A stretch of 64,000 nt of DNA, taken from NCBI GenBank assembly GCA_034003725.1, contig JAVEYB010000012.1, positions 1-64,000 on the forward strand, written 5' to 3'. This DNA is from Candidatus Zixiibacteriota bacterium. GTDB lineage: Bacteria; Zixibacteria; MSB-5A5; GN15; FEB-12. This document shows positions 22,211-23,427 of this stretch, one piece after another; the stretch's first letter is position 1, and each line of letters opens with the position of its first letter. A model generated the notes under the pieces. It worked only from the letters and a program-made list of their open reading frames with translations, was not told the origin of the DNA and did not search any database. The position numbers and the translations under genes were made by a program.

Positions 22211-22843
22211 TTACAACATGCGGGCAATTGCATCAAGCAGAACTATTGCCAATTCCGATTTGGGCATAAGGTCGAGGCTGCGCGGCTTTGCTCCGGGAAC
22301 GATAATGGTCACCTGGTTGGTGTCGTGATCAAATGCCGAATGCGGATCGGATGGGCTGTTCAGGACGACCATGTCGAGGTTCTTGGCCCTGAGTTTCTCA
22401 CGGGCGTTCACGAGGCCGTGGTCGGTTTCCAGTGCAAAACCGACCAGAACCTGCCCCGGGCGCTTTCGCAGTCCCATTTCGCGCAGAATGTCGACGGTCG
22501 GCACAAGCTCGAGCGCCAGGGCGTCAGCGCGCTTCTTGAGTTTGGTATCCGAAGGCCGCGCCGGTCTATAGTCTGCCGGCGCCGCCGCCATGATCAGGCA
22601 GTCGCAGGATTCGAATTCGCGCGAGACCGCCTCGTACATCTGCTGAGTAGTTTCCACCGTGTGGAAGGTGAGACCGCTTGGAGCCGGCAGGCTGGTTGGG
22701 CCGGAAATCAGAACGACTTCCGCGCCGGACTCCACGGCGGACCGTGCCAAAGCATAGCCCATTTTACCGGACGAGCGATTTGAGATGAACCGGACGGGGT
22801 CAATTGTCTCGCGGCAGGGACCGGCGGTAACGATTACTTTTTT
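22211..22843 (-). CDS. coaB: Phosphopantothenate-cysteine ligase domain (CoaB), in -1 frame to coaC
   Basis: The ligase half of the coenzyme A enzyme CoaBC, joining cysteine to 4'-phosphopantothenate. The reading begins at about GKKVIVTAGPCRETIDPVRF and runs through SNRSSGKMGYALA, AAAPADYRP, KLKK and VGFALETD, all normal CoaB motifs. No start codon or ribosome site precedes the conserved N-terminus. The first ATG in frame (22762) would cut off the nucleotide-binding strand and the SNRSSGKMG motif. It is therefore probably made only as a fusion with the preceding CoaC through a -1 shift (see 22837-22874), or else the sequence has lost one base. Confidence 0.85.
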   Translation of the reverse strand, partial: KKVIVTAGPCRETIDPVRFISNRSSGKMGYALARSAVESGAEVVLISGPTSLPAPSGLTFHTVETTQQMYEAVSREFESCDCLIMAAAPADYRPARPSDTKLKKRADALALELVPTVDILREMGLRKRPGQVLVGFALETDHGLVNAREKLRAKNLDMVVLNSPSDPHSAFDHDTNQVTIIVPGAKPRSLDLMPKSELAIVLLDAIARML

Positions 22844-23427
22844 GCCCGCGAGCGGGCGATGGGCTTTTTTTTTTCAGATCCGGAAGAGAAGAACTGCTTC
22901 ACCAGTTCATAAATCTCCTGCGGTTCGGCCATTCTCCCGACACCGACGTGATCACATGCCATCTCCCCCTCCTCCGGGTCTATCAAGCGATAGCCCAGTT
23001 CCTTCAGCAGGGCGATATTTCTTTGTGTCACCGGGTTTCCCCACATCTGGGGGTTCATGGCAGGAGCCAGCATAACCGGTCGCGGTGTCGCGCAGATGAC
23101 TGTCGTGAGCAGGTCATCGGAGATGCCGGAGGCAATTTTGCCCACAACATTCGCGGTCGCCGGGGCAACAACAACAAGATCCGGCCATTCGGCCAGATCG
23201 ATATGTCGGGTGGCCACGTATTGACCTTCGGGAAACAGCTCGACCGCAACGGGGCGATTTGCCACCGATTCGAGCGTGAGGGGCGTAATGAACCTGGTCG
23301 CGGCGGCGGTCATCACTACTTGCACCTCAGCGGAATCCTTACGGAGAAAGCGGACGAGATAGGGGATCTTGTAGCAGGCAATGCCGCCGGTCAAGCCGAC
23401 CAGCACTTTCTTACCGGCCAACGACAT
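22834..23427 (-). CDS. coaC: Phosphopantothenoylcysteine decarboxylase domain (CoaC)
   Basis: The FMN-dependent decarboxylase half of CoaBC, 197 residues up to TAA at 22834. KKVLVGLTGGIACYK binds FMN. TRHIDLAEW has the catalytic His, VVAPATANVVGK and LAPAMNPQMW are the decarboxylase motifs, and GEMACDHVGVGRM carries the essential Cys on the flap. In most bacteria the frame continues directly into CoaB. Here it stops just after an A-rich linker and CoaB continues in the -1 frame. It starts two bases after smg ends. Confidence 0.92.
   Translation of the reverse strand: MSLAGKKVLVGLTGGIACYKIPYLVRFLRKDSAEVQVVMTAAATRFITPLTLESVANRPVAVELFPEGQYVATRHIDLAEWPDLVVVAPATANVVGKIASGISDDLLTTVICATPRPVMLAPAMNPQMWGNPVTQRNIALLKELGYRLIDPEEGEMACDHVGVGRMAEPQEIYELVKQFFSSGSEKKKPIARSRAKK
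22837..22874 (-). other. Putative -1 frameshift or transcript-slippage zone in coaBC
   Basis: The two frames are both open only between a TGA in the CoaB frame (22875-22877) and the TAA ending CoaC. This zone holds an A10 run (22865-22874) and, in the CoaC frame, A AAA AAG directly before TAA (22837-22843). That is the heptamer used in E. coli dnaX. A 5-bp hairpin (GCCCG/CGGGC) lies between them. An extra A in the first run gives the linker RPLAGKKVIV, which fits the family well. Confidence 0.6.

Follow-up and report, generated by a model that had tools for sequence, protein, structure and literature searches.

The closest described parallel to the locus considered here is the dnaX gene of Thermus thermophilus, in which a long run of nine A residues is conserved inside a cellular gene, stops follow soon after the run in both other frames, and transcriptional slippage yields a long and a short product from one gene, with two tRNA-Lys species and without RNA stimulators (PMC1088944, PMC5009743). 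A criterion for programmed transcriptional slippage is an A or T run of about nine or more whose length is conserved among homologs (PMC1088944), and a review has proposed that having two tRNA-Lys species bears on the reliance of Thermus on polymerase slippage (PMC5009743). On A runs, bacterial RNA polymerase mainly adds A's, giving 10 to 15 of them from the A11 of tssM1 (PMC4256274), and no deletions were seen with the E. coli enzyme on the A runs examined (PMC6260861). In the secretion genes tssM1 of Citrobacter rodentium, with its 11 A's upstream of a stop, and tssM3 of Yersinia, one species obtains its long form through slippage, the other its short form (PMC4256274). The E. coli dnaX gene, by contrast, relies on -1 ribosomal frameshifting at a zero-frame A AAA AAG heptamer, where AAG is read only by tRNA-Lys(UUU). 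Ordinary bacterial CoaBC, finally, is one fixed fusion of two domains with a short linker; in mycobacteria the enzyme is dodecameric, its core being built from CoaC and its edges carrying CoaB dimers (PMC7794376).

The coaC-coaB junction of the source genome

The window, i.e. the whole 64-kb stretch of DNA that was analyzed, belongs to a draft genome (G000) of 35 contigs and 3.73 Mb that is 99.5% complete. It contains the same two domains in the same order as ordinary CoaBC, but in two reading frames, with the following features:

22834 to 23427, minus strand: coaC reading frame (phosphopantothenoylcysteine decarboxylase), 197 aa, 21.4 kDa; would be the default product without slippage
22834 to 22836, minus strand: coaC stop codon TAA, 31 nt past the A10 run, ending the CoaC-only product
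22211 to 22873, minus strand: coaB reading frame of 220 aa (phosphopantothenate-cysteine ligase domain), shifted by -1 from that of coaC
22865 to 22874, minus strand: A10 run (T10 on the forward strand) in the coaC/coaB overlap; candidate slippage site
22837 to 22843, minus strand: A AAA AAG heptamer directly before the coaC stop, encoding GKK in the CoaB frame; present only here and in one relative (G001)
22844 to 22857, no strand assigned: GC palindrome GCCCGCGAGCGGGC, with a 5-bp stem and a 4-nt loop; not conserved

Both products score above the Pfam cut-offs, CoaC as Flavoprotein (PF02441, E 2e-35) and CoaB as a complete DFP domain (PF04127, positions 1-186 of 186, E 7e-71). The coaB frame offers no ATG, GTG or TTG ahead of codon 37, which already lies inside the DFP domain; the reading frames and domain matches thus bear out the initial annotation, which had coaC end at the TAA and CoaB begin in the -1 frame without a start codon. 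Since the DFP match is the only one in this near-complete genome, which holds no second coaB, this frame encodes its sole CoaB. Within the window no other A or T run reaches nine, and the 3.73 Mb contain just three A10 runs, this one included; the split coaC/coaB pair with A10 in its overlap is therefore real and beyond chance.

Adding one A would join ...SSGSEKKK to AHRPLAGKKVIVTAGP... and create a predicted fusion of 405 aa with a computed mass of 43.9 kDa, somewhat below the 45 kDa first proposed:

CoaC-CoaB joint of the predicted fusion: SEKKKAHRPLAGKK
Linker of the predicted fusion with one added A: SGSEKKKAHRPLAGKKVIV

This linker has the same form as those of relatives in which the two domains are fused, such as SKKKALTGKRILVTAGP in G015, whereas a slip at the downstream A6G heptamer would give a linker devoid of the LxGK element that relatives show. 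The earlier preference for A10 over the heptamer, based on the linker, is thereby upheld. The same cannot be said of the suggestion that the dnaX-like heptamer and the GC hairpin belong to the signal. Neither occurs outside the source genome and its nearest relative, the hairpin folds no better than shuffled sequences, no downstream structure is conserved, and the genome carries a tRNA-Lys(CUU); we judge the two elements to be incidental.

Conservation of the run and changes of frame

The joint was compared base by base in 60 relatives, with further genomes added later; 59 readable coaBC genes came from the family of the source genome (f1) and a second family of its order (f4). At the CoaC-CoaB joint, an A run of at least nine is found in 40 of 46 f1 genes and 12 of 13 f4 genes (52/59 together), and in 47 of the 59 it is exactly A10; conservation of length of the kind described for Thermus dnaX is thus evident. 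No run of at least nine occurs at the joint in 10 genes from the two further families of the order (f2 and f3), nor was a joint run seen in 52 genomes from other families of the class. A10 runs are otherwise scarce, at 2-5 per genome in ten genomes, coaBC always holding one of them. One f2 genome (G053) shows 28 forward A10 matches compared with 0-3 in its f2 neighbors, possibly one long run counted repeatedly. The A10 is kept although lysine could be encoded by AAG (AAA makes up 55% of the Lys codons in these coaBC genes), and among relatives it is found in each of the three phases with respect to the CoaB frame, which together indicate that the nucleotide run is conserved and not the protein linker alone.

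What changes around this constant run is the frame. CoaB lies in the -1 frame after A10 in 16 species, namely the source genome, both of its genus-mates and 13 more, and in the opposite direction in a single species with A11, so that splits at the run number 16 to 1 in favor of those mended by a single added A; in the other species carrying the run, coaBC is a single open frame across it. The fused or split arrangement changes 9 times on a tree built from 62 CoaC+CoaB proteins, 6 of these changes being forced by well-supported branches, while A10 is kept. In one genus (g30), G066 reads A10-GCCCTGACC and G067 reads A10-GCCTGACC, i.e. the frame differs through an indel beside the run and not within it. 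Such shifts are to be expected if slippage can reach the needed frame either way, and are hard to account for by sequencing error. The frame relation may thus evolve freely because the run could reach any frame. The initial annotation had supposed that relatives with an uninterrupted coaBC and no conserved A-rich motif would speak against slippage; most uninterrupted relatives carry the same A10.

The run is lost or shortened in 7 of the 59 species, which implies that slippage would not be indispensable in the clade. In three of the genomes that lost it (G022, G071 and G032; loci L022, L263 and L006), coaB starts with an ATG inside or just after the end of coaC, making the two truly separate genes, and separate CoaC and CoaB must therefore be tolerated; G012 has an ATG at the coaC stop. 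Two others (G018 and G063) lost the run and have a fused coaBC.

Were slippage in use, one would expect stops soon after the run in the frames to which it leads. Expected counts were obtained by keeping the protein and redrawing its codons by codon usage, with a closure window of 15 nt for coaBC and 24 nt for dnaX. Both non-CoaB frames are closed within 15 nt past the run at 28 of 51 sites, against 5.7 expected (20 against 4.2 with one species per genus). In the same genomes dnaX, the positive control, is closed in 11 of 16 cases against 1.8 expected, whereas genomes without the run show 1 closure in 12 against 0.6; the z values are optimistic owing to the relatedness of the species, but the contrast with the controls holds. 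Nearby stops of the type described for Thermus dnaX are hence found across the clade. The source genome itself is a loose case, its alternative frames ending 31 nt and 65 nt past the A10, and the distant stop in the second of them speaks against slippage.

Probable polymerase slippage and its alternatives

Taken together, these patterns suggest, with a probability of about 0.7, that slippage at the A10 is programmed and, most likely through RNA polymerase, gives CoaC and CoaBC. Ten A's are about the length of the RNA-DNA hybrid, and a polymerase traversing them would add one or more A's in part of the transcripts. Unslipped mRNA would yield the free 197-aa CoaC, and a transcript longer by one A the 405-aa fusion, so that in the source genome the fusion, and all CoaB activity with it, would depend on slippage; in relatives with A10 in a single frame, slippage would yield a shorter CoaC instead. 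Why should CoaC exceed CoaB in a dodecameric enzyme? Conceivably, where CoaC and CoaBC are mixed, cores bearing fewer CoaB domains could assemble. That slippage occurs, how efficient it is, that it involves the polymerase and not the ribosome, and that it serves mixed CoaC/CoaBC assemblies is what we infer from the genomic DNA.

The strongest competitor is a programmed -1 ribosomal frameshift on the A10, with a zero-frame A AAA AAG or A AAA AAA and no RNA stimulators, that would make the same fusion. Ten A's provide a slippery heptamer in any phase, and in the source genome the run ends gaA AAA AAG, a zero-frame heptamer of the X XXY YYZ type like that of E. coli dnaX. The near-exclusive -1 type of the splits (16 to 1 in coaBC; 21 to 2 in a STAS-domain gene described below) would follow as well, an excess that fits both mechanisms. 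Moreover, MnmE modifies the wobble base of tRNAs reading AAA and AAG, and mnmE is itself among the A10 genes, an arrangement that would permit autoregulation. On the other hand, no downstream RNA structure is conserved (mean fold z -0.09, n=52 sites), upstream SD-like motifs number 4 against 3.2 by chance, and thus neither the SD nor the stem-loop of E. coli dnaX has a conserved counterpart at coaBC. The source genome has tRNA-Lys(CUU) adjoining tRNA-Lys(UUU), so that AAG is not left to tRNA-Lys(UUU) alone, as it is in E. coli. A -1 slip needs only about seven bases, though ten are conserved. Nor does a ribosomal slip predict the closure of the second alternative frame in split genomes (12/19 against 4.0 expected) or of the B+1 frame in fused genomes (23/32 against 15.2). 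We therefore regard ribosomal frameshifting as the unlikely, if most serious, alternative. The absence of conserved structure or SD and the presence of both tRNA-Lys species, next to an extra-A direction of the splits that a ribosomal -1 slip would share, lead us to favor the polymerase over the ribosome by roughly three to one, bearing in mind that counts across related species are not fully independent statistically. Transcriptional slippage in Thermus dnaX accordingly appears to be a better parallel than ribosomal frameshifting in E. coli dnaX.

Considerably less probable is that CoaB is a decayed pseudogene or a plainly split gene with its own cryptic start. A true two-gene state does exist in the three runless genomes with a CoaB ATG, and the ATG at the coaC stop of G012 points the same way, but the CoaB frame of the source genome lacks any start before codon 37 and holds the only DFP domain of the genome. 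That domain is intact, and a dN/dS of 0.20-0.25, far below 1, in a trio of comparable split genomes shows that CoaB in split relatives is under purifying selection. As for an 11th A lost through sequencing or assembly error, which would restore one open frame, homopolymers are a classic source of error and the genome is a draft, but A10 with the -1 arrangement recurs in both genus-mates and 13 more species, in separate assemblies of 1 to several hundred contigs, A11 is called where present (G056, G062) and the frame can change by indels outside the run, making this the most improbable reading of all. The initial annotation had posed slippage against a missing A; with 15 other species sharing A10 and the -1 frame the latter is very unlikely, while slippage at A10 giving CoaC plus CoaBC is well supported.

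Programmed polymerase slippage in coaBC would differ from the known cases in several ways. Unlike in Thermus dnaX, the gene is coaBC and the run A10, the slippage is predicted from sequence, and in the source genome and 15 other species the genomic frame specifies the short product, the long one requiring slippage. Compared with tssM1 and tssM3, where long and short forms alternate between two species much as split and fused coaBC do here, it concerns an essential coenzyme A gene, spans two families and has similar sites in other genes. Where ordinary CoaBC is one fixed fusion, there would probably be CoaC and CoaBC side by side. A literature search that covered a minor part of the subscription papers found nothing linking coaBC with frameshifting or slippage. 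As far as that search goes, coaBC would be a newcomer among the few cellular genes with programmed slippage. Although the mechanism is of a known kind, we are not aware of an earlier description of it in coaBC, of its becoming fixed across two families while the frame changes freely, or of a shared set of A10 genes. In annotation, genes of this type are usually called frameshifted or taken for pseudogenes; the one here, essential and broken in appearance, would be kept intact by slippage.

A runs in other genes and lineages

The 160 A10 runs listed for 49 f1 and f4 genomes include 33 in coaBC and 26 in dnaX; among the other loci retrieved, 41 belong to a single STAS-domain gene and 16 stand right at the beginning of mnmE. 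The run of the source genome in dnaX is as follows:

G000:C9:164099-164108 (L232): dnaX run

In many f1 genomes, dnaX carries A9-A10 past the clamp-loader part (A10 in 26 of the 49 listed), mostly in one frame, and stops follow in both other frames; it is a probable tau/gamma slippage site. In the STAS-domain gene, the A10 separates the STAS domain from a C-terminal region that matches no Pfam family. The two parts share a frame in 18 of 41 cases and are offset in the other 23, 21 of these offsets, against 2, being such that a single added A would restore one frame. These loci are L233, L234, L238, L241, L243, L245, L247, L250, L254 and 32 more.

In mnmE, the ATG just before the A10 is out of frame with the MnmE body in 15 of 16 cases, always in the same direction, and the source genome has A9 in the same place with no in-frame start (L412). 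MnmE would thus need slippage from its first codons. An A run a few codons past the ATG is seen at L240, L249, L325, L327, L328, L359, L371, L373, L375, L391, L392 and L398. In f4, several mnmE genes without an A run (L395, L399, L400, L407, L409) show an SD-like AAGGAG or a similar motif ahead of ATT or ATA in place of ATG, perhaps as non-AUG starts, and mnmE initiation looks unusual across the order.

The few A10 runs that are kept thus seem to gather in genes where slippage would matter, and those in dnaX, mnmE and the STAS-domain gene suggest a clade-wide set of slippage genes. Could A10 be a recoding signal shared throughout the two families and acting in at least four genes with no relation to one another (coaBC, dnaX, mnmE and the STAS-domain gene), so that rates of slippage together govern coenzyme A synthesis, the composition of the clamp loader and the wobble modification of tRNA? 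We consider this tentative, at somewhat less than even odds. If true, the full products of split coaBC and of mnmE would arise only through slippage, and MnmE could regulate itself should part of that slippage be ribosomal; this would be a lineage in which one homopolymer length appears to serve as a reusable recoding signal.

Among the matches listed in a GTDB-wide pattern scan, A9-A13 at the coaBC joint turns up here and there in Bacteroidota and in a few further lineages, and outside the clade both frames are closed in 26 of the 80 listed, against 8.9 expected. Given many Bacteroidota among the matches listed, a general feature of that group was considered and rejected, with only 3 of 247 genomes in an even sample (one of them the anchor) having it; its occurrence there is sporadic. 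Among the matches listed, Bacteroidota groups with A9-A11 at the joint, some with a -1 split, include Alistipes and relatives (L106, L112, L120, L147, L154, L157), Parabacteroides and Tannerellaceae (L092, L110, L126, L138) and other Bacteroidales (L089, L102, L111).
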